A stretch of 64,000 bases of DNA from Thermoproteota archaeon (GCA_026986575.1 JALSOH010000009.1:62001-126000); one strand, 5' to 3'. Shown: positions 1,172-11,299, numbered from the stretch's first letter. Numbers and translations are program-made. The notes: generated from the letters alone by a model not told the origin.

Positions 1172-1927
1172 GTGAAAATGAAAATTCCACCGTCGCACTT
1201 GAAGTTGGGCTTGGTGGTTCTATTAGTAATCCTATGCATCCCTCTAGTGAGGAGCTTTGCTACGGAGGGATGGATAACTGGTATAAGCACGGAGGAAACC
1301 CCCACCAACGAGACGGCTGTTAAAGTCACCGTCGAAATCGGAGTTAAGGTCCAGTTTGACTCTCCTGGCTATTACGTGGTACTTATAAGGGACGACTCGA
1401 CTGGCGAGTACCTCGCGGAATCCATCAGGTACTCGGTGGGGGCCATATCAGAGGAGAAGACGATAACTCTGCACTTCGAGAGACCAACAGACCCCGGAAC
1501 TTATTCATACACCGCCATTTTGAAGATGAAGGATTCATCCTCTGGATGGTTCGATGCTGACACGGAGCACTTCTCGATCGTGGTACCGGTCCCTCAGACC
1601 ATCACAAACGTTACCACAGTCACCCTGACGGAGACAGTGACTAAAGCCTTGGAATACCTTCAAACTGTAACCCAGACGGTTACTGCAACGGAGACGACAA
1701 CGTACACTCAGATTAACATAACTACCCTCACGATCCTCAGGACGGTGATCCAAAACCTCACAAAAACAGCCACCCTGACTAGGAACATCACCCTGACCAA
1801 GGTAATCACGGTAACGGTTACTCCCGTATCCCAAGAGAGTCCATCAATGGATGTTCGACTGATCGGTTTGGGGGTTATTGGCGTTCTAGTGGCTATTCTC
1901 TTGGTGATGGCCCTGAGGAGGAGGTGA
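1172..1927 (+). CDS. Secreted Thr-rich surface protein with C-terminal membrane anchor
   Basis: The 251-residue protein has an N-terminal signal peptide (LGLVVLLVILCIPLV), a beta-rich extracellular domain (about residues 30-130), a Thr-rich stalk (about 140-220) full of TVT/TLT/TIT units, and a C-terminal helix (LIGLGVIGVLVAILLVMAL) followed by RRR. This is the usual layout of archaeal surface proteins on a stiff, probably glycosylated stalk. GTG 1172 or ATG 1178 could be the start. The GTPase gene follows after 30 bases and may be co-transcribed. The specific function is unknown. Confidence 0.75.
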   Translation: MKMKIPPSHLKLGLVVLLVILCIPLVRSFATEGWITGISTEETPTNETAVKVTVEIGVKVQFDSPGYYVVLIRDDSTGEYLAESIRYSVGAISEEKTITLHFERPTDPGTYSYTAILKMKDSSSGWFDADTEHFSIVVPVPQTITNVTTVTLTETVTKALEYLQTVTQTVTATETTTYTQINITTLTILRTVIQNLTKTATLTRNITLTKVITVTVTPVSQESPSMDVRLIGLGVIGVLVAILLVMALRRR

Positions 1928-1957
1928 TAGAGATCTAGAGAGCTGGAGGGCCCCGCC

Positions 1958-2560
1958 ATGAAGAAGATGAAGATCGTGGTGATAGGACCCCATCAGGCCG
2001 GTAAATCGACGCTGATAAGGAGGCTCGATCCTTGGGCCGTCAGGATGGACTACTCCAAGGGCACCTTCTCAACCACCGTTGGCTTCGACTACGGCATAGT
2101 CCTCTGGGACGCTACTGAGGACAGGATATACAGGAGGGATCAGATAGATCTCGTGGACCCCTCGAACGAGATATGGAAGGTCACCATAACCGGAACTCCG
2201 GGACAGATAGCCTTTTCAGGAGCTAGGAAAGCCTTATTGAGGGGTAAGAACGCTGTCATACTTCTGATAGATGCCACTCAACCTGCTCATCTAGTTTATG
2301 CCATGGAGCAGTATCAAGAAGCTAAGGAAGTCTTGGGATCCGGATTTCCCATGGTTATTTTCTCTAATAAGCACGACCTCCCAATAGCCAGAGACCCCAA
2401 GCAGATGGTACCCCTGCTGGGAATAAGAGCAGATGTTTGGGAGATCTCGGCACTTAAAGGGAGTAACGTGGAACGAGCTTTTAAGAGTTTTCTCGGGAAG
2501 GTCCGGAGGTATCTCATACTTGAATCGGTCACCGAGATCGTAGGTAGACGCTGGTTATGA
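1958..2560 (+). CDS. Small Ras/MglA-like GTPase (COG2229-like)
   Basis: The 200-residue cytoplasmic P-loop GTPase has a G1 motif GPHQAGKST near the N-terminus, TT in the G2 region, TGTPGQ in place of a canonical DxxG switch II, NKHD as G4 and SALK as G5. Such small archaeal/bacterial GTPases (MglA/Gtr-like) usually act as switches in polarity, motility or trafficking; that role is family knowledge, not shown here. The start ATG is preceded by a good GGAGGG ribosome site. It lies 30 bases after the Thr-rich surface protein, so a link to envelope or pilus function is possible. The Asp of DxxG is replaced by Thr-Gly, which could alter hydrolysis. Confidence 0.8.
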   Translation: MKKMKIVVIGPHQAGKSTLIRRLDPWAVRMDYSKGTFSTTVGFDYGIVLWDATEDRIYRRDQIDLVDPSNEIWKVTITGTPGQIAFSGARKALLRGKNAVILLIDATQPAHLVYAMEQYQEAKEVLGSGFPMVIFSNKHDLPIARDPKQMVPLLGIRADVWEISALKGSNVERAFKSFLGKVRRYLILESVTEIVGRRWL

Positions 2561-3180: not shown

Positions 3181-3879
3181 TTACGGGATCGTCCCAGCGG
3201 ATAGTTTGTGCGCCATGTGCTCGATCCTCCTTAATCGGCTCTTTAGGGAGGGACTCCAAGAGAGCAAACCGAGAACTTCCCTTAGAGAGGGAGTGAATCC
3301 CACAACTAGGAAGGGACTTCCGGTCTTAGCGGCCGCCACCTTCAGGAGCGCTAATGCGAGATGGAAGGGCTTCCCAGTGGTCAACACGGAGAACTCATCG
3401 GCCCTGTACTCGAGCCTCCTCGACAGGGCGGCACCCATAATGGTCCCGACGGGAATATTCATCAGGCCGAGTGCTAGGGCTGCGATCCTCATCATCGAGT
3501 GGTGTTCCACCAGATGGCCCATCTCATGAGCCAGCACAGCCCTCAACTCCTCCTCGCTCAATAGATCCAGCATGCCGTCGGTCAATACGATGGCGCCGCT
3601 CCTGAATCCCACCTGACCAGCAAAGGCGTCTGGAGGACCGGGCCTTATCCCCAACCTCACCCTCCAACTTTGAGGGGCGATCCCCTCCAGAATTCGGTAA
3701 AGTTCGTGATCGTGGGGTAACCACTTTACCCTTAAGATGGAGAGCGCCATCCGACCCACTAGGATCTCCATCAGTGGGAGGGAAGCTATGGCTAGGGAGG
3801 AGAGCAGCAGGATCCAGGATCTGAGTTCAAGAGAGACCAAGAGCAGCACTCCTGACGTGACTAGGGCATAGAAGATCAT
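3181..3879 (-). CDS. Membrane-bound M48-type zinc metalloprotease
   Basis: The 232-residue protein has two hydrophobic N-terminal segments (about residues 2-45), the gluzincin zinc motif HEMGH (about residue 116, within EELRAVLAHEMGHLVEHH), and a downstream EYRADEF that supplies the third zinc ligand, as in HtpX/M48 peptidases. The start ATG overlaps the stop of the upstream BlaI-type repressor (ATGA), so the two are translationally coupled. In bacterial BlaR1/MecR1 systems a membrane metalloprotease inactivates BlaI/MecI; this protein lacks a penicillin-sensor domain but sits in the same genetic position. I infer that it removes the repressor in response to a membrane signal. Confidence 0.8.
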   Translation of the reverse strand: MIFYALVTSGVLLLVSLELRSWILLLSSLAIASLPLMEILVGRMALSILRVKWLPHDHELYRILEGIAPQSWRVRLGIRPGPPDAFAGQVGFRSGAIVLTDGMLDLLSEEELRAVLAHEMGHLVEHHSMMRIAALALGLMNIPVGTIMGAALSRRLEYRADEFSVLTTGKPFHLALALLKVAAAKTGSPFLVVGFTPSLREVLGLLSWSPSLKSRLRRIEHMAHKLSAGTIP

Positions 3880-4268
3880 TTCCCTACACTCTCCTCGATC
3901 CTCCTTAGCAGTTCCCTGAGCTCCTCCTCATCGAGCCGACTGGTACTCTCCTCGACGAACCTGAGGAGCGCCACCTTTCCCAAGATGCTAGAAATCTTGT
4001 CTACAGCCTCCCTCACCATCCTGCGCTCGTATTCCTCACGGGTCACCGCGGGCCTGTAGATATAGTAGGTACCGCCTCTCCCCCTCGCGCTCTCCCTCAG
4101 CAGGAGCCCCTTCCTGTACAACCTAGATACTACGGTACTGACGGTGGTGAACGAAAGTTTCCTCTCCCTGTCCCTATTTATCTCCTCGAATATCTCTCGT
4201 ACCGTCGCCTTTCCCTTTCGGAATAGGATCTCCATCACTTTAGGTTCTAGGGGCTCTCTGCCCATCAT
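3876..4268 (-). CDS. BlaI/MecI-family winged-helix repressor
   Basis: The 130-residue protein matches the penicillinase-repressor family. An N-terminal winged helix (about residues 8-75) has the typical order LEPKVMEILFRKGKATVREI, then LSFTTVSTVVSRLYRKGLL as the recognition region, then a wing (GRGGTYYIYRP) and a C-terminal dimerisation helix (about 78-130). ATG 4268 or ATG 4265 could be the start. A TACTAC-N5-GTAGTA palindrome touches the start codon, which implies autoregulation, and a near-identical palindrome lies in the promoter of the divergent ABC exporter. The protease gene follows with a 4-base overlap. Family assignment is strong; the signal sensed is unknown. Confidence 0.85.
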   Translation of the reverse strand: MMGREPLEPKVMEILFRKGKATVREIFEEINRDRERKLSFTTVSTVVSRLYRKGLLLRESARGRGGTYYIYRPAVTREEYERRMVREAVDKISSILGKVALLRFVEESTSRLDEEELRELLRRIEESVGK

Positions 4269-4284
4269 ACTACATGACGTAGTA
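4268..4284. promoter_or_regulatory. Operator 1: palindrome at the repressor gene start
   Basis: TACTAC and GTAGTA flank a 5-base centre (ATGAC). It overlaps the first base of the repressor gene and shares most positions with the palindrome at 4338-4358. A possible minus-strand TATA element (CTTAAATT read on that strand) lies at about 4286-4293. The TACA...TGTA-type core resembles known BlaI/MecI operators. Confidence 0.75.
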
Positions 4285-4327
4285 GCAATTTAAGTGATCG
4301 CATTCGGCTTTCACCTCCCATGAAACG

Positions 4328-4358
4328 ATATATATAACCTACTACATTATGTAGTAGG
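4328..4358 (+). promoter_or_regulatory. TATA box and Operator 2 of the ABC exporter
   Basis: TATATATAA (4329-4337) is a strong archaeal TATA box. It abuts a perfect inverted repeat with 10-base arms (CCTACTACAT and ATGTAGTAGG) around a single T at 4338-4358. The start codon GTG is at 4366, so transcription should begin within or just after the palindrome. A bound repressor would therefore block the polymerase or transcription start. Confidence 0.8.
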
Positions 4359-4365
4359 TGGCACC

Positions 4366-5301
4366 GTGATAGAGGTTCGGGGCCTCACCAAGGCCTATGG
4401 GGAGAATGTTGCGGTCCAAGACCTGAGCTTCTCCGTGCGGGAAGGAGAGACATTCGGGCTCCTAGGACCTAACGGTGCCGGTAAGACCACTACAATAAGG
4501 ATACTCGCGTGCATAATCCCGCCGGACTCCGGGAAAATAGTGGTGAACGGCTACAACGTGGTTGAGGATCCTCTCCTGGTGAAGGCCGGCGTCGGTCTCC
4601 TACCCGAGAGGATCTCCCTGTATGAGAGGCTAACGGTAATGGAGAACCTCCTCTTCTTCGCTCGCCTGTACGGGGTCGAGGAACCCGCGCTCAGGATAAA
4701 AGAGCTTCTCAACAAGCTGGAGATCCAGGATAGAGCTGATGAGCTCGTCTCCAAGCTCTCCAAGGGTTTGAAGCAGAGGGTTTCTATAGTCAGGGCCCTG
4801 CTGCACGATCCCCCGGTCCTCCTGTTGGACGAGCCCACATCTGGCTTGGATCCCATCAGTGCGGAGGTGATGAGGTCCCTAGTAAGGGATCTCTCCACCC
4901 AGGGCAGGACGATCCTGTTGAGTTCCCACAACCTCTGGGAGGTCCAGCAACTCTGTAACAGAGTTGCAGTGATAAACACTAGGCTCCTAGCACTGGGATC
5001 GGTGGATGAACTCTCAGAGAAGTTCTTGGGGCCTCCGAAGGTCAGGTTGCTGCTAGAGGAAGTGAGAAAAGAGGTGCTGGAAGCCATTCAATCGGTCAAC
5101 AGCGTCATTACCGTGGAAAGGAGGGATAAGGAGATTCTGATAGGGGTCAAGGATCCAGAGAAAGCGGTTCCCGTAATCAGTGAAGCTGCCATCAGGGCCG
5201 GAGGCCGCATCCTCGAGGTCAGCGTGGTGAGGCCCGGACTGGAGGAGCTCTTCGTGAGGGTGCTCAAAGATGAGATGGGACAGGATTCTAGCGGTGGCTA
5301 G
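4366..5301 (+). CDS. ABC transporter ATP-binding protein (ABC-2 exporter type)
   Basis: The 311-residue ATPase carries Walker A GPNGAGKTT (about residue 35), signature LSKGLKQR, Walker B VLLLDEPTSGLDP and an H-loop SSHN. A C-terminal extension of about 90 residues is typical of DrrA/CcmA-like exporter ATPases. It is first in a probable two-gene operon; its 3' end overlaps the permease start by 32 bases. The promoter has a BlaI-type operator, so expression is probably repressed by the divergent repressor. The substrate could be a lipid, peptide or toxic compound and cannot be read from sequence. Confidence 0.88.
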   Translation: MIEVRGLTKAYGENVAVQDLSFSVREGETFGLLGPNGAGKTTTIRILACIIPPDSGKIVVNGYNVVEDPLLVKAGVGLLPERISLYERLTVMENLLFFARLYGVEEPALRIKELLNKLEIQDRADELVSKLSKGLKQRVSIVRALLHDPPVLLLDEPTSGLDPISAEVMRSLVRDLSTQGRTILLSSHNLWEVQQLCNRVAVINTRLLALGSVDELSEKFLGPPKVRLLLEEVRKEVLEAIQSVNSVITVERRDKEILIGVKDPEKAVPVISEAAIRAGGRILEVSVVRPGLEELFVRVLKDEMGQDSSGG

Positions 5302-6053
5302 GAAGGACTGGAGGGAAGCGATGAGGGGGACATGGATAATCGCTCCCTCAGTCTTCCTCGTCGCTTACTTCGGTGTCGTGCTGCCAGCCATCCTGATATA
5401 CGCGGCCAAGGCGACCGGCGAGGTGTTCATCCCCGTCAACATACCCTTCCCGATAAGGGTGGAGGGGGACCTGGCCAGATCCCTATACTTCGCCTTCCAG
5501 GCCGTCATACCCCTCATCTTCCTAGTGATTCCTTTAGCGGTATCCACCATACTCGCCGCTGACGGATTCGCAGGGGAGAGGGAGAGGGGGACCTTGGAAC
5601 TGCTGCTTGCTGCCCCTCTAGACGAGAGGGAGCTCCTCCTCGGGAAGGTACTGGCAGCTCTCGTTCCCGGAGTGGTATCCTCATGGGCGACCTTCCTGCT
5701 GATGGTGCCGACGGTGAACCTCCTGTCCTCCGACATATTCAACGGTCCTTGGTTCCCCCTGGGGCCGGAGTGGATCATTGTCATATTCCTCATATCTCCC
5801 CTGTACTCCTTCTTGGCCGTCGCGATAACGTGTGCCCTTTCATCCAAGGTAAGGAATGTGAAGGAGGCCCAGCAAGGCGCTGGCATCCTCATAGTCCCCT
5901 TACTGATCGTGGTGCTGGCTCAAGTCTTCTGGGGGGGTGGCAGTGGACGCTAAGGCGCTGATCTTGGCATCGCTCCTGATAGGGGGCGTGGATGCGACCA
6001 TGGTGCTCGTACTGCCGAGACTGTTCCACGGCATCAGATACATGCTGGAGTGA
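5270..6053 (+). CDS. ABC-2 type permease, interrupted by a +1 frameshift at a G7 run
   Basis: The frame starting at ATG 5270 encodes five or so membrane segments (for example APSVFLVAYFGVVLPAILIY, AVIPLIFLVIPLAVSTIL) and the conserved GERERGTLELLLAAP loop of ABC-2 permeases. It stops at 5953 just after GGGSGR. Skipping one base in the seven-G run 5931-5937 restores a frame that reads another membrane helix (ALILASLLIGGVDATMVLVL) and ends naturally in HGIRYMLE at 6053. The full protein would be about 261 residues, normal for the family. A sequencing error, phase variation at the G-run, or true inactivation are all possible. Confidence 0.8.
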
Positions 6054-6155: not shown

Positions 6156-6533
6156 CTACTTGGAGGTATCAGATCTATCTACACTCCTAGTCGCCACCAC
6201 TCTCGTCTCCAAGCCCAAAGGGCGATCCTCCAAGACCTGACCTATGGAGACTGGGGCCTCAACCTCCAAAGTGGCTAGGTAATTCATCAACTCACGGATC
6301 CTCTCCTTAGGTATGGGAGAATCGGTCTTCACGCTGACGACGGGCTCTTTCCCCCCTCTCACCCGTATCACGGTCATTACCACCCTTTTCGGGGATAGGA
6401 CTTCTTCCACGGCCCACTCCCTTCCCCGGGAGCAGTTGAATCCCCTCACATCCCTGACCTCGCTCCCCTCGACCTCCACCTCCACCGAGCAGCTGAGCGG
6501 GCAGATCACGCAGGTGAACCTGTAGACCGTCAT
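6156..6533 (-). CDS. DUF1667 Cys-rich protein of the glycerol-3-phosphate dehydrogenase cluster
   Basis: The 125-residue protein has CxxC (CVICPLSC) near the N-terminus and a further Cys (FNCSRG), typical of DUF1667. This family is usually encoded directly after a GlpA-like dehydrogenase and a pyridine-nucleotide-disulfide-type FAD protein, as recalled for Thermotoga, and is thought to hold a metal or Fe-S centre for electron transfer. Here the order is the same: it overlaps the upstream FAD oxidoreductase by four bases. It is probably an electron-carrying subunit of a membrane-associated or soluble G3P dehydrogenase complex. Confidence 0.8.
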   Translation of the reverse strand: MTVYRFTCVICPLSCSVEVEVEGSEVRDVRGFNCSRGREWAVEEVLSPKRVVMTVIRVRGGKEPVVSVKTDSPIPKERIRELMNYLATLEVEAPVSIGQVLEDRPLGLETRVVATRSVDRSDTSK

Positions 6534-7747
6534 CTGATCACCAGCGTGACCTTTCCTCCCCCTACTCCAGCTTTGATCCTGAGTCTGAGCATCTCAGACG
6601 GCTTGAGCACTGGCACCTTCCTCTTCAATCCGACCTCGGGCACTTCCACCAGCGCGTCCTCCACAGGCTTCGACACCCTCGCGTAGAGCCAGATTTCCCT
6701 GTCCCCTCCCAGCATGTGGGGGACGACGAACCTGACGTTTCCCTCCCTCCTGACCCTGATCCATCTCCTCGTGGGAATCCCACCACCTCTGATGAATTCC
6801 TCGGCGCCTCTCGCTGCGGTTCTGCCCTGCTCAACGGCGTAATCCACTAAGTCGTTTATGATCAGGGAGTTACCTGCAGCGAACACCCCGGGCAATGTGG
6901 TTTCGAGCCTGTCGTTGACCACTGGTCCACCAGTGGCGGGATCCATGACTGCTCCGGCTTTCCTGAGGACCTTAACCCTGGGAACCAGACCAGCAGATAT
7001 GAGGAGGGTGTCGCACTCCATCCAGAAACCCTCGCCAGCCCCCTCCAGCTCTTCATCTACCTTCACCACTTTAACCCGCTCGACCCTGCCCCTCCCCCTG
7101 ACCTCCGTCACCTTCTGGCTCAGATAAAGGGGTATGTCGAAGTCCCTGAGGATCATGAGGTTCCTCGCTAACCCGCCGGGGTAGGGCAGCATCTCCACGA
7201 CGGCAACCACCTCTGCCCCCTCGAGGGCGAACCTCCTCGCCATTATCAGGCCCACGTCCCCAGAGCCTACGATGACGACTTTCCTCCCAGGCATGACCCC
7301 GTAGAGGTCCATCATAGCTTGGGCCTCTCCTGCGGTGTAGATGCCGGCCACCCTATCGCCTGCTATTCCCACCTCAAACCTGTGCCTCTCCCTCGCCCCC
7401 GCAGCGTAAATCACCGCCTTGGCCTGCACAGTTTCGTTCCCTCGGGGTGATGCGTAGGTAACCTCCTTGACTAGGTCGGATCTCATCGCTATGGAGGTGA
7501 CATGGGCTTGGGTCCTAACCTCCACATCGCTCCTCCTCACCTCCTCAATCAGGCGGTGCGCGAACTCGGGTCCGGTCAGGTCCTCCCCGAGGCATTGGAG
7601 ACCGAATCCGGGATGGATGCACTGCGGTAGTATGCCGCCCAGTCTGGAGTTCTCGTCTAGGAGGAGGGTCCTTAATCCCAGCTTAGATGACTCAGAAGCT
7701 GCGGCCAGCCCAGCTGGGCCTCCACCCACGATCACCACGTCATACAT
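6530..7747 (-). CDS. FAD/NAD-dependent oxidoreductase subunit of the GlpA-like complex
   Basis: The 405-residue flavoprotein has an N-terminal FAD-binding Rossmann motif VGGGPAGLAAA, a second nucleotide-binding motif VVIVGSGDVGLIMARR (about residues 155-170) and a late FAD-binding stretch TTLPGVFAAGN. It belongs to the pyridine nucleotide-disulfide oxidoreductase group but shows no clear CxxxxC redox pair. It starts one base after the stop of the GlpA-like gene and overlaps the DUF1667 gene, so the three are one translational unit. It probably passes electrons from the dehydrogenase to NAD(P) or another carrier. Confidence 0.82.
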   Translation of the reverse strand: MYDVVIVGGGPAGLAAASESSKLGLRTLLLDENSRLGGILPQCIHPGFGLQCLGEDLTGPEFAHRLIEEVRRSDVEVRTQAHVTSIAMRSDLVKEVTYASPRGNETVQAKAVIYAAGARERHRFEVGIAGDRVAGIYTAGEAQAMMDLYGVMPGRKVVIVGSGDVGLIMARRFALEGAEVVAVVEMLPYPGGLARNLMILRDFDIPLYLSQKVTEVRGRGRVERVKVVKVDEELEGAGEGFWMECDTLLISAGLVPRVKVLRKAGAVMDPATGGPVVNDRLETTLPGVFAAGNSLIINDLVDYAVEQGRTAARGAEEFIRGGGIPTRRWIRVRREGNVRFVVPHMLGGDREIWLYARVSKPVEDALVEVPEVGLKRKVPVLKPSEMLRLRIKAGVGGGKVTLVIR

Positions 7748-7748
7748 G

Positions 7749-9170
7749 CTATCGCCTCAGGAGGACCTTCACATCACCCACTCCCAGCTCGCTCCCCCTT
7801 CCCTTCAAGGTGACCTCCCACAGTGGAACTCTAAACTCCTCGGCCAGTATCCTAGCTATTTCTATCCTGCAGAAGGATCCTTGGCACGTGCCCGTGGTTG
7901 CAGAGGTCCTGAACTTGACGGAGTCCACGCTCGGGATCTTCACCCCAATGCGCTTCATCCTCCTGATCGCCTCCCTTATCTCGGACTCCCTGACTAGGTT
8001 ACACCGGCAGATCACCCTTCCTCTAGCGGTTCCATCCCTGTGGATACCCCTCCTCTCGGCCTTCCACTTCGCCTTCTCCTTCAGATCGATGCCCATTCCC
8101 TCAAGTATCCTGACTACCTCCTTGGCGACAGCCGGGGCCGCCGTCAGTCCCGGAGACCTCATGCCAGCCACGTTCACGAATCCCCAAACATCCTCAGCCC
8201 TGATCACGAAGTCCCCTCCTGTTGGCTCCGGCCTCAGACCGGAGAATGTCCTTATCACTCTGCTAAGGGGAGGGAGGGGCCACATCTCTGATGCTCTCTC
8301 GTAGACCTCCCTCAGTCCCTTTGGAGTGGTGCTCCTATCATCCTTCTCCTCCTTCGGGAGGTCCTGAGCGTTCGGCCCCACCATGAGATGGCCCTGAACC
8401 TCTGTGGTGACCACGATCCCCTTACTCTTCTCGCTAGGGGTGGGGAAGAGCACCCTAGACGGCTTGGGACCGGCATCCTCGTCAAATATGAGGTATTCGC
8501 CCTTTCTAGGTCTTATCTCGAAGTAGTCGATCCCCGCCATCCTAGAAATCTCGTCGGCATGCAGTCCAGCGGCGTTTATCACGACATCGGCCTCCAAGAA
8601 TCCCGTATTGGTCCTTAACCCTTTCACCCTATCCCCGCTCACCTCCACCCCCCTGACCTCCGTATCAAGGTGCACCTTCACCCCGTTGTCGACCGCGTTC
8701 TCCACCAACGCAATCACCGCTTGAGGCGGCGAGATCTGACCGACGGTGGGAGCGTAGAGGGCGGCCTCCACCTTCATTAGGTTCGGTTCCATCGAGAGCG
8801 CTTCATCCCTCTCCAATATCCTCAGCTCCGGGACCCCGTTCCTCTCGCCCCTCCTCAAGAGCTCCTCTAACACCTTCACCTCCGACTCCTCCTTAGCTAT
8901 TACGAGGGCGCCGCTCCAGGCGTGAGGGATGTCCAGCTCCTCCACCCATCGATGCCAGATCCTGTTTCCTTCGACACAGAGCCTAGCCCTATTGGGAAAT
9001 CTGTCTGGGTCATCGTCGTATCCTGCGTGGATGAGGCCGGTATTCGCCTTACTCACTCCCCAACCGACGTCAGCTTTCCTCTCCACTAGATGGACTTCAA
9101 CCTCGTATCGACTCAGCTCCCTAGCTATGCTGGTCCCCACGATTCCAGCGCCTATGATAGCGACCCTCAT
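7749..9170 (-). CDS. glpA: Glycerol-3-phosphate dehydrogenase-like FAD protein with BFD [2Fe-2S] domain
   Basis: The 473-residue protein begins with a DAO-family FAD motif (IIGAGIVGTSIARELSR) and keeps the KANTGLIHAGYD and GLRPEPTGGDFVI segments of GlpA/L2HGDH-type dehydrogenases. From about residue 390 a BFD-like [2Fe-2S] domain follows, with CRC and CQGSFC cysteines. Such fusions occur in anaerobic G3P dehydrogenase GlpA. It probably oxidises sn-glycerol-3-phosphate to dihydroxyacetone phosphate. It lies 25 bases after the GDPD gene, which would supply G3P, supporting the assignment. A related 2-hydroxyacid oxidase role cannot be excluded. Confidence 0.8.
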   Translation of the reverse strand: MRVAIIGAGIVGTSIARELSRYEVEVHLVERKADVGWGVSKANTGLIHAGYDDDPDRFPNRARLCVEGNRIWHRWVEELDIPHAWSGALVIAKEESEVKVLEELLRRGERNGVPELRILERDEALSMEPNLMKVEAALYAPTVGQISPPQAVIALVENAVDNGVKVHLDTEVRGVEVSGDRVKGLRTNTGFLEADVVINAAGLHADEISRMAGIDYFEIRPRKGEYLIFDEDAGPKPSRVLFPTPSEKSKGIVVTTEVQGHLMVGPNAQDLPKEEKDDRSTTPKGLREVYERASEMWPLPPLSRVIRTFSGLRPEPTGGDFVIRAEDVWGFVNVAGMRSPGLTAAPAVAKEVVRILEGMGIDLKEKAKWKAERRGIHRDGTARGRVICRCNLVRESEIREAIRRMKRIGVKIPSVDSVKFRTSATTGTCQGSFCRIEIARILAEEFRVPLWEVTLKGRGSELGVGDVKVLLRR

Positions 9171-9195
9171 GGGATCTAACCCGACCTAACCTAAC

Positions 9196-9936
9196 CTACC
9201 TAAGGCCCATGCTCCTCAGTAGCTTCAGTGCTTTGGGCGGATCGTCGGTGATGACCGCGTCGAAAGTGCCAGCCAGCTCGGGCAGCAGCTGATGGAGGTG
9301 ATCATCGTTAGCGGCCCACAATATCAGCCTGAGCCCCATACTCCTGAGCATCTCCGATGCCGCGGCGAAGCCCTCAATGCCAAGGAGGTCAACTCCCTCC
9401 ACAGGTGCGTTCACGGAGAAAAGCCTCAATTCCCTAGTGAGGGAGGGGATCTTGGCGAGCATCTCCTCGCTATCTATCAGGAGACCTAGCCTCGCTTCAG
9501 GGTCGAGGGACCTCACCCTCCTCAAGGCATTAACGTCGAAGGATGAGTAGAGGACACGATCCGAGGAGCCAGTCTCCCTCACCACCTGGACACATCTCTC
9601 AGCAGCCCTCTCCTCCTTTATCTCCACGTTCACTAGCCTCTCAACTCTGGAGAGGACCTCCCTCAGGGTGGGAACGTGCTGACCCATCCCCAAGTCGGCC
9701 CTCCTTATCTCCGCCAGCGTGAGCTCACCTACCAGCCCGGACATGCTCGATGTCCTGTCCAAGGATTCATCGTGGATCACCACCACCTCTCCGTCGCCTG
9801 TTAGCCTCACGTCTAACTCTACCCCATCGGCTCCGGCCTTCACAGCCTCCTCGAAGGCCAATAACGAGTTCTCGGGATATAGAGCGCTGTATCCTCTATG
9901 GCCGAGCACAAGCACGCTACCAGCTTCCCAGCTCAT
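9196..9936 (-). CDS. Glycerophosphodiester phosphodiesterase
   Basis: The 246-residue TIM-barrel enzyme shows the GDPD hallmarks: [17 protein letters not shown] at the N-terminus with catalytic His-Arg and Glu, [29 protein letters not shown] with metal-binding Glu/Asp and the second catalytic His, and late VNIEIKE-type and WAAND segments. It hydrolyses glycerophosphodiesters to an alcohol and G3P. No signal peptide is present, so it acts in the cytoplasm on imported diesters. A TATA-like element (GTTTAAAAG on the minus strand) lies about 27 bases before the ATG, suggesting a leaderless operon that continues into the GlpA-like genes. Confidence 0.9.
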
Positions 9937-9957
9937 CGAGGTAGGGAGGTGAATGGA

Positions 9958-10018
9958 GCTTTTAAACTGGGTGTCAGTTGACGCCTTTTAAGGAACCGGT
10001 CCTTAGGGCCGCGGAGGT
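9958..10018. promoter_or_regulatory. Divergent promoters with a TAAGGA/TCCTTA inverted repeat
   Basis: Two TATA-like elements face away from each other: TTTAAA at about 9960-9966 for the leftward GDPD operon and CCTTTTAAGG at about 9984-9993 for the rightward transporter. TAAGGA-N5-TCCTTA (9989-10005) overlaps the second one and may be an operator coordinating both units. GGAGGT at 10013-10018 is the ribosome site for ATG 10023. Confidence 0.6.
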
Positions 10019-10022
10019 CAAC

Positions 10023-11299
10023 ATGCCCTCGGACCCGGACTTCAGCTATGGGCGTATATTTGTGCTGGGTTGGGTTTCTTCGGGATAAGCATAATATGGT
10101 CGCTCTACAATGCTTATGTTCCCATTTTCCTGAAGGACTTCGCCCTCTCTTCATTCATCATAGGGATCGTGATGGTCATAGACAACGTGTTCGCGATACT
10201 CCTTCTACCCTACCTCGGCGCCCTCAGCGACAGGACTAGGACCAGATGGGGGAGGAGAAAGCCCTACATAATGGTGGGCGCTCCCCTAGCCGCTCTCATG
10301 TTCGCGCTCATTCCCCTAGCTAGGGAGAGCGCTGACCTGGCGTTGATGATGGGGACCATAATCACGATGAACTTCTTCATGGCCCTCTTCCGTTCCCCTG
10401 TAATAGCTTTCATGCCCGACATCACTCCCTCCCAGTACAGAAGCCAAGCTAACGGGATAATCAACTTCATGGGCGGTGTGGGATCCCTCCTCGTGTACTT
10501 CGCCGGTAAGGTGCTCTACGACATCCATTACTCACTCCCCTTCCTCATCGGAGCTGCCCTCATGCTTCTAGCTAACCTCGTGGTAGTTCTCTTTGTCCCT
10601 GAACCCGAGGAATACAAGCATAAGGGGCAGAAACTCTATCTAAGGGAATTCTTTAGGAAGACGACGGAGGAGAGCTTCGGAGAGCTCAAGGAGAACCTCA
10701 AAGACGTGTTTTCCAGTGGTGAGAGGAGCCTGTTCTTCATGCTCCTCTCAATACTGCTGTGGTTCATAGCCTTCAACTCGCTGGAGACATTCTTCACCAG
10801 CTACGCCAAGTTCAGGCTTGGGATAGGCGAATCCACAGGAGCCCTCATACTGGGATTCGTGGCCCTCGGCTTTATACTCTTCTCACTACCAGCCGGGTTC
10901 ATAGGCGCGAGGTTCGGCAGGAGAAGGACTATTTCGCTGGGTCTCATACTGATCACGGTCATAATGCTGCTCGCCATCCAAGCGAGCGACTCCCCCAACG
11001 TCCTACCACTCTTCTCGGGCCTCTTCTTCTTGGGAGGATTGGGATGGGCTCTGGTGAACGTGAACTCCCTTCCCATGATCGTGGACATGACCGTGGATGA
11101 GAAACTGGGCGGGTATACGGGACTCTACTATTTCTTCTCCCAGGCGGCCAACATATTCGCTCCTCCCCTAGCTGGGCTCTTCATAGACGCTCTGGGATAC
11201 GATTCCCTCCTCCCATTCGCAATAGTTTTCTTCGCGGCCTCCCTACTGACCATGCAGTTCGTTAGGAGGGGTGAGATTAAGGTACTCGATCAACTGTAG
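10023..11299 (+). CDS. MFS transporter (SLC45/GPH-like), frameshift near the N-terminus
   Basis: The protein has about 12 membrane segments, the MFS loop DRTRTRWGRRKPYI between TM2 and TM3, and the layout of SLC45/GPH sugar-type carriers. ATG 10023 has a perfectly placed GGAGGT but its frame (MPSDPDFSYGRIFVLGW) stops after about 21 codons, while the long frame continues as GFFGISIIWSLYN from TTG 10070. Joined, they read as one continuous N-terminus. A single base seems to be missing in GGGTTGGGTTTC at about 10067-10077, or translation starts at TTG 10070. Being divergent from the GDPD/G3P operon, it may import glycerophosphodiesters, glycerol phosphate or a sugar. Confidence 0.82.

Follow-up and report, generated by a model that had tools for sequence, protein, structure and literature searches.

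A putative BlaI-type repressor and M48-type protease switch at an archaeal ABC exporter locus

Within a 64-kb stretch of DNA (the window) from a Thermoproteota archaeon of hydrothermal-vent origin, 97 bp part two divergent operons, the leftward one encoding a BlaI-type repressor and then a membrane protease, and the rightward one an ABC ATPase and then an ABC-2 permease. In our best reading, to which we assign a probability of roughly 0.6, an autoregulated BlaI repressor is relieved through proteolysis by its sensor-less partner, and export is thereby induced. Proteolytic relief of BlaI repressors is known from bacterial antibiotic resistance; if our reading is correct, the module would be a conserved archaeal counterpart, and the circuit would predate beta-lactam sensing or be independent of it. 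The identities of the genes, the coupling of repressor and protease, the putative operators and their position, and the co-inheritance of these parts are established here by comparison of sequences.

Divergent operons and candidate operators

The features of the locus, numbered from the first base of the window, are as follows.

3181..3879, minus strand: membrane zinc protease, M48/HtpX-like (PF01435, E=3.8e-20; 232 aa; gluzincin HEMGH ... EYRAD)
3876..4268, minus strand: BlaI/MecI-family winged-helix repressor (PF03965, E=7.4e-22; 130 aa)
4269..4283, no strand: candidate operator O1, ACTACATGACGTAGT, between repressor TATA and start (dyad, kept in relatives)
4288..4295, minus strand: TATA-like element of the repressor promoter, ACTTAAAT on the minus strand (sequence; conservation)
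4329..4336, plus strand: TATA box of the exporter promoter, TATATATA (sequence; small changes in relatives)
4337..4359, core 4341-4355 (ACTACATTATGTAGT), no strand: candidate operator O2, 23-bp palindrome ACCTACTACATTATGTAGTAGGT (dyad, conserved)
4366..5301, plus strand: ABC exporter ATPase, DrrA-like (PF00005, E=7.8e-32; DrrA C-terminal domain)
5270..5953, plus strand: ABC-2 family permease (PF12679, E=2.1e-16)

A sequence-only reading of this DNA had described a BlaI/MecI-like winged helix, a coupled HEMGH protease and a divergent ABC exporter, and Pfam matches and coordinates bear out all three; the repressor stop overlaps the protease start by 4 nt, and by this layout the two genes are translationally coupled. 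The repressor scores 78.3 bits against PF03965 (Penicillinase_R; curated cut-off 22.6) and matches MecI and BlaI in phmmer, while its top NCBIfam match, TIGR02698, reaches 46 bits and stays below the cut-off of 122. MecI and BlaI are also the top PDB matches of its structural model (pLDDT 83), with a probability of 1.00; the TM is modest at about 0.5, and it is over the C-terminal helices that confidence in the monomer model is low. The protein has no obvious ligand domain and not a single cysteine, which excludes CopY-type metal sensing because no CxC metal site can be formed; the target, moreover, is an ABC exporter and not a copper ATPase.

The two near-identical palindromes reported earlier at 4268-4284 and 4338-4358 proved to be real, with boundaries at 4269-4283 (O1) and 4341-4355 (O2). 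Both are of the type ACTACA-N3-TGTAGT and agree at 13 of 15 bases, O2 widening to a perfect 23-bp palindrome, and when the 97-bp intergenic region was shuffled 20,000 times with dinucleotides preserved, no shuffle produced two dyads of such quality and mutual similarity. Within the 64-kb window the degenerate form ACTAYRNNNYRTAGT, with zero or one mismatch allowed, matches O1 and O2 and nothing else, and the 15-mer ACTACATNATGTAGT, exact or with one mismatch, is found across the genome at the module only. No wider regulon emerged in this genome, the other near-matches carrying at least two mismatches to the 15-mer. Two other best 13-mer matches, examined as further operators, both lie inside coding genes, and a one-mismatch dyad in genome G002, which has no BlaI and no module genes in that region, was taken as chance.

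Measured from centre to centre, O1 and O2 each follow the TATA element of their own promoter, in the downstream direction, at a distance of 15.5 bp. Each candidate operator occupies the interval between the TATA box and the start, a place at which a bound protein should, in archaea, obstruct RNA polymerase. Judged by typical TATA-to-start spacing, the repressor transcript is predicted to lack a leader and the exporter transcript to have almost none; the GAAACG that precedes the exporter TATA box is a possible BRE. Both promoters carry conserved TACA/TGTA dyads with a core spacing of N3, to which BlaI is predicted to bind, and we consider repression through the dyads likely. The published core of the CopY/BlaI/MecI operators is TACA-N2-TGTA (PMC7253601). 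Clostridium thermocellum BlaIs use GTCTAT/GACTAT half-sites that for one BlaI stand five bases apart (PMC8457756), so that operator spacing varies within the BlaI family.

For the exporter, TIGR01188 (drrA) is the best NCBIfam match of the ATPase and falls under its cut-off. The sequence-only reading had set the end of the region at 6053, and permease sequence does continue to that point, but only in another frame: the open frame ends at 5953, after a G7 run at about 5930-5936 (window 5926-5940) that breaks it relative to relatives. Permeases of the relatives have intact open frames of roughly 262-273 aa, read through the G7 position (L036, L037) and are longer at the C terminus by about 35 residues. 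Either a true frameshift or a fault of assembly could account for the break.

The surroundings of the module include a glycerol-metabolism-like cluster (window 6156-11299) encoding a DUF1667 protein, an FAD oxidoreductase, a glycerol-3-phosphate-dehydrogenase-like DAO protein with a BFD domain, a protein resembling glycerophosphodiesterases and an MFS-like transporter; its DUF1667/FAD/DAO part stays beside the module in relatives. On the other side, window 1172-2560 codes for a membrane-anchored protein rich in threonine, beside a Ras-like small GTPase. An Rfam search of the window returned no match.

The partner protease and proposed relief of repression

The HEMGH membrane protease is present and coupled to the repressor as the sequence-only reading had it, but it is not of the M56 type found in BlaR1/MecR1: the Pfam search gave no Peptidase_M56 match in this protein, whereas M48 matched, and the enzyme is M48/HtpX-like. 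It carries the M48 domain, the HExxH motif (HEMGH, residues 118-122) and the downstream E..AD that define M48 membership, and by the absence of M56 and sensor domains it is not a BlaR1 member. Among 22 archaeal partner proteases H118, E119, H122 and E157 are invariant and D161 is nearly so. The closest fold to its model (pLDDT 85) is that of Ste24p/ZMPSTE24, with BlaR1 matched more weakly (8exp, probability 0.99); Ste24p/ZMPSTE24 are likewise the closest membrane relatives of BlaR1 with known structure (PMC9834060). No extracytoplasmic or penicillin-binding sensor domain was found, since hydropathy and the model leave no room outside the membrane in 232 aa. The signal must arrive by way of the membrane, of a partner protein or of the exporter.

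We propose that a BlaI dimer would bind O1 and O2, each between TATA box and transcription start, and prevent RNA polymerase from assembling or being loaded at the exporter promoter and at that of its own gene. The M48-type membrane protease, translated together with BlaI, is expected to have its catalytic domain on the cytoplasmic side, like BlaR1. A membrane-associated signal would activate the protease, which would then cut BlaI within the C-terminal part that serves dimerisation, presumably close to an Arg-Phe pair that aligns with Asn101-Phe102. Loss of BlaI would induce the exporter and reset the repressor/protease operon. Of the minimal repressor-protease-exporter switch put forward in the sequence-only reading, the repressor, the coupled protease, the exporter and the matched operators are upheld by sequence, predicted folds, synteny across genera and operator position; cleavage and the membrane signal are steps that we infer.

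If BlaI does repress, its cleavage by the partner protease is plausible. Proteolytic relief is favored because BlaR1 cleaves BlaI, because the fold is Ste24p/BlaR1-like, because an Arg-Phe is found at the aligned place and because the catalytic residues are invariant. BlaR1 cuts BlaI directly, between Asn101 and Phe102, with its active site facing the cytosol (PMC9834060), and the aligned place reads LLR-FVEE in the window repressor and VLN-FVEK in MecI. The P1' Phe is kept in the window genus and in a third genus of the family and is Leu in a second. Conservation of the cleavage site seemed initially to set protease-linked BlaIs apart from unlinked ones, and was dropped as proof when the position turned out to be hydrophobic in both (L/F/I in linked, M/I in unlinked proteins); with P1' Phe not strict either, the argument from the cleavage site is weak. 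In family f10, many BlaIs stop shortly beyond the aligned position.

M48 enzymes also serve general membrane quality control, and MacB/ABC-2 exporters and HtpX have envelope-stress roles. BlaI could accordingly repress through O1/O2 and be relieved by a ligand or by a redox or temperature effect on BlaI itself, the protease being a co-regulated, HtpX-like quality-control effector that does not cut BlaI. The HtpX-like M48 rather than M56 character of the protease, the envelope-stress function common to such exporters and HtpX, and the lax conservation of the putative scissile residue are all in keeping with this account; the lack of a cysteine or an obvious ligand domain in BlaI speaks against it, as do two comparative observations given below, and we hold it to be rather unlikely. 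It is also conceivable that the operators serve only autoregulation and constant low export, with BlaI as a homeostatic brake and no inducing signal. A 232-aa protease without a sensor domain would suit such a brake, which would, however, leave a dedicated protease partner with no role, and we regard it as the least probable of the explanations considered.

Relation to known systems

Like BlaR1/BlaI and MecR1/MecI of S. aureus, the archaeal module pairs a repressor of this family and fold with a membrane gluzincin protease in what appears to be an autoregulated operon with TACA/TGTA operators (PMC9834060, PMC7253601). It differs from S. aureus BlaR1/BlaI in having no beta-lactam sensor, in an M48 instead of an M56 protease, in N3 instead of N2 spacing (sites of the window genus and the second genus), in its ABC exporter target, in its archaeal TATA-type promoters and in the order repressor-then-protease. 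CopY/CopR belong to the same superfamily, and CopY controls an exporter through TACA-N2-TGTA boxes (PMC7253601); the window system has no CxC site, an ABC exporter in place of a copper P-type ATPase, and a protease partner. The BlaIs of C. thermocellum, BlaI_0696/BlaI_1845, are comparable in lying in an operon with BlaR1 genes and in their small regulon, two dyads per target and GACTAT-like half-sites (PMC8457756), and differ in the five-base separation of the half-sites, in being bacterial and in their BlaR1-type proteases.

A sensor-less BlaI/protease pair is not new in kind. M. tuberculosis BlaI/BlaR (Rv1846c/Rv1845c) likewise couples BlaI with a protease partner that lacks an extracellular sensor domain, and blaC and the genes for cytochrome bd and ATP synthase are among the members of its regulon (PMC5473688). 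The mycobacterial system has a BlaR1 homologue and bacterial promoters, and no linked exporter is mentioned for it (PMC5473688). The earlier claim of a new setting for this type of regulation therefore needs narrowing, the more so as the gene pair is common in archaea (see below); what is new is the M48-type protease, the archaeal promoters with TATA-proximal operators, the N3 spacing against the bacterial N2, and exchangeable ABC exporters as the target.

The protease itself resembles HtpX and Ste24 in sequence family and predicted fold, and is shorter and co-translated with BlaI. We know of no HtpX or Ste24 enzyme that acts as partner of a dedicated repressor.

Conservation in the family and across archaea

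A search of 61 genomes for close BlaI relatives identified three further species of the window genus (G003, G007 and G015), two of a second genus (G016 and G020) and one of a third (G017), all of the same family. G003, G007 and G015 keep the divergent four-gene order and both dyads, so that conserved gene order and palindrome in related archaea, proposed as a check with the sequence-only reading, both recur. O2 is conserved in these three species; O1 is kept in L022 and L023 and has one base changed in L024, and the repressor TATA element CAATTTAA is conserved in four loci of the genus.

The two genomes of the second genus retain the gene order; their operators have diverged, and a further ABC pair is present. 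Here the cluster has grown to hold two ABC systems, and the exporter operon opens with the gene for a small membrane protein resembling PLDc_N (L025 about 5437-5642 in G016), whose Pfam match lies exactly at the cut-off; of the dyads, one is good (TCTACATTGTGTAGT) and one degenerate. In the third genus (G017; L027 1947-5972), a MacB/FtsX-type exporter lies divergent to BlaI and protease. On either side of the TATA box in its promoter is a perfect 6-3-6 dyad (ACTATGACTCATAGT and ACTATAATCTATAGT), and a degenerate dyad occupies the usual place in the repressor promoter. In all six promoters measured, drawn from three genera, the distance from the TATA centre downstream to the dyad centre falls within 14.5-21.5 bp, for TATA elements chosen by eye. 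The repressor-side sites of the second and third genera have 3 mismatches to the consensus, and taken alone the sites of these genera reach only moderate significance in shuffles (146/5000 and 101/5000, respectively).

The G017 protease, of 420 aa, passes both the M48 and the M56 thresholds (M56 51.7 bits, cut-off 31) and possesses one more TM helix, followed towards the C terminus by an outside segment of some 70 residues, at the place where BlaR1 has its sensor. Archaeal partners thus span the M48/M56 border. A partner above the M56/BlaR1 cut-off argues against a mere quality-control role, and a segment placed like the BlaR1 sensor argues against a brake that receives no signal.

Of the 24 family genomes, 6 carry an orthologue of the ABC-2 exporter, and BlaI is present in every one of these (hypergeometric 5e-5, a value that ignores shared ancestry and physical linkage). 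Within the genus the module is patchy, being present in 4 of 16 genomes. This patchiness would agree with a mobile cassette kept by co-transfer and not by regulation, the dyads being targets of another regulator, and physical linkage alone would produce the co-occurrence. Against such a cassette, glycerol-locus genes flank the module in G000, G003, G007 and G015 as well as a remnant in G008, which fits vertical inheritance with losses, and the dyads occur with BlaI at the same promoter position beside different exporters; we judge the cassette improbable, and regulation by BlaI through the dyads the better explanation. In G008, a member of the window genus whose glycerol-locus genes are about 88% identical to the window's, the repressor, exporter and operators are all absent, indicating loss as a unit, and a C-terminal protease pseudogene is the sole remnant. 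An unrelated coiled-coil-like ORF lies between the glycerol-locus genes and that pseudogene (L144 about 3188-4334).

Among 394 archaeal genomes surveyed with PF03965 at E below 1e-12, 48 encode BlaI, and in 39 of these a protease gene of the same family follows blaI on the same strand (38 with HExxH and one fragment), frequently with a 4-nt ATGA-type overlap. An ABC ATPase gene near the pair was found in only seven of the 48, all of the window family, with one further ABC gene about 3 kb from the pair in L130. The pair thus forms the conserved core, with the exporter as an output particular to this lineage. That repressor-protease adjacency, and not the exporter, is the most conserved part of the locus also weighs against a protease that is simply co-regulated with an exporter for envelope stress. 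Dyads like O1/O2 were not recognisable within 170 bp upstream of blaI in other archaea, and the operator type therefore looks specific to the window family.

More speculatively, and on balance we doubt it, archaea may own a widespread class of BlaI-M48 proteolytic switches, in which M48 enzymes were recruited as repressor-cleaving transducers independently of M56 or represent the state before sensor domains were acquired, wired here to exchangeable ABC exporters that may feed a signal back to the protease. A literature search, outside of which lay most subscription journals, found nothing on archaeal BlaI-protease pairs. Our main reading, if true, would provide a first function for a gene pair found across archaea, and the short, sensor-less systems would be well suited to finding the signal that reaches the protease.

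The fragment counted above is a protease ORF without HExxH beside blaI in G055 (L028 4469-5376), possibly a pseudogene or a frameshift. All nine BlaI genomes without an adjacent protease belong to one family, f34 (L109, L110, L113, L123, L127, L129, L132, L134 and L135), and most blaI genes of this family have a conserved TTTTGGTGGTGA-like stretch just upstream.
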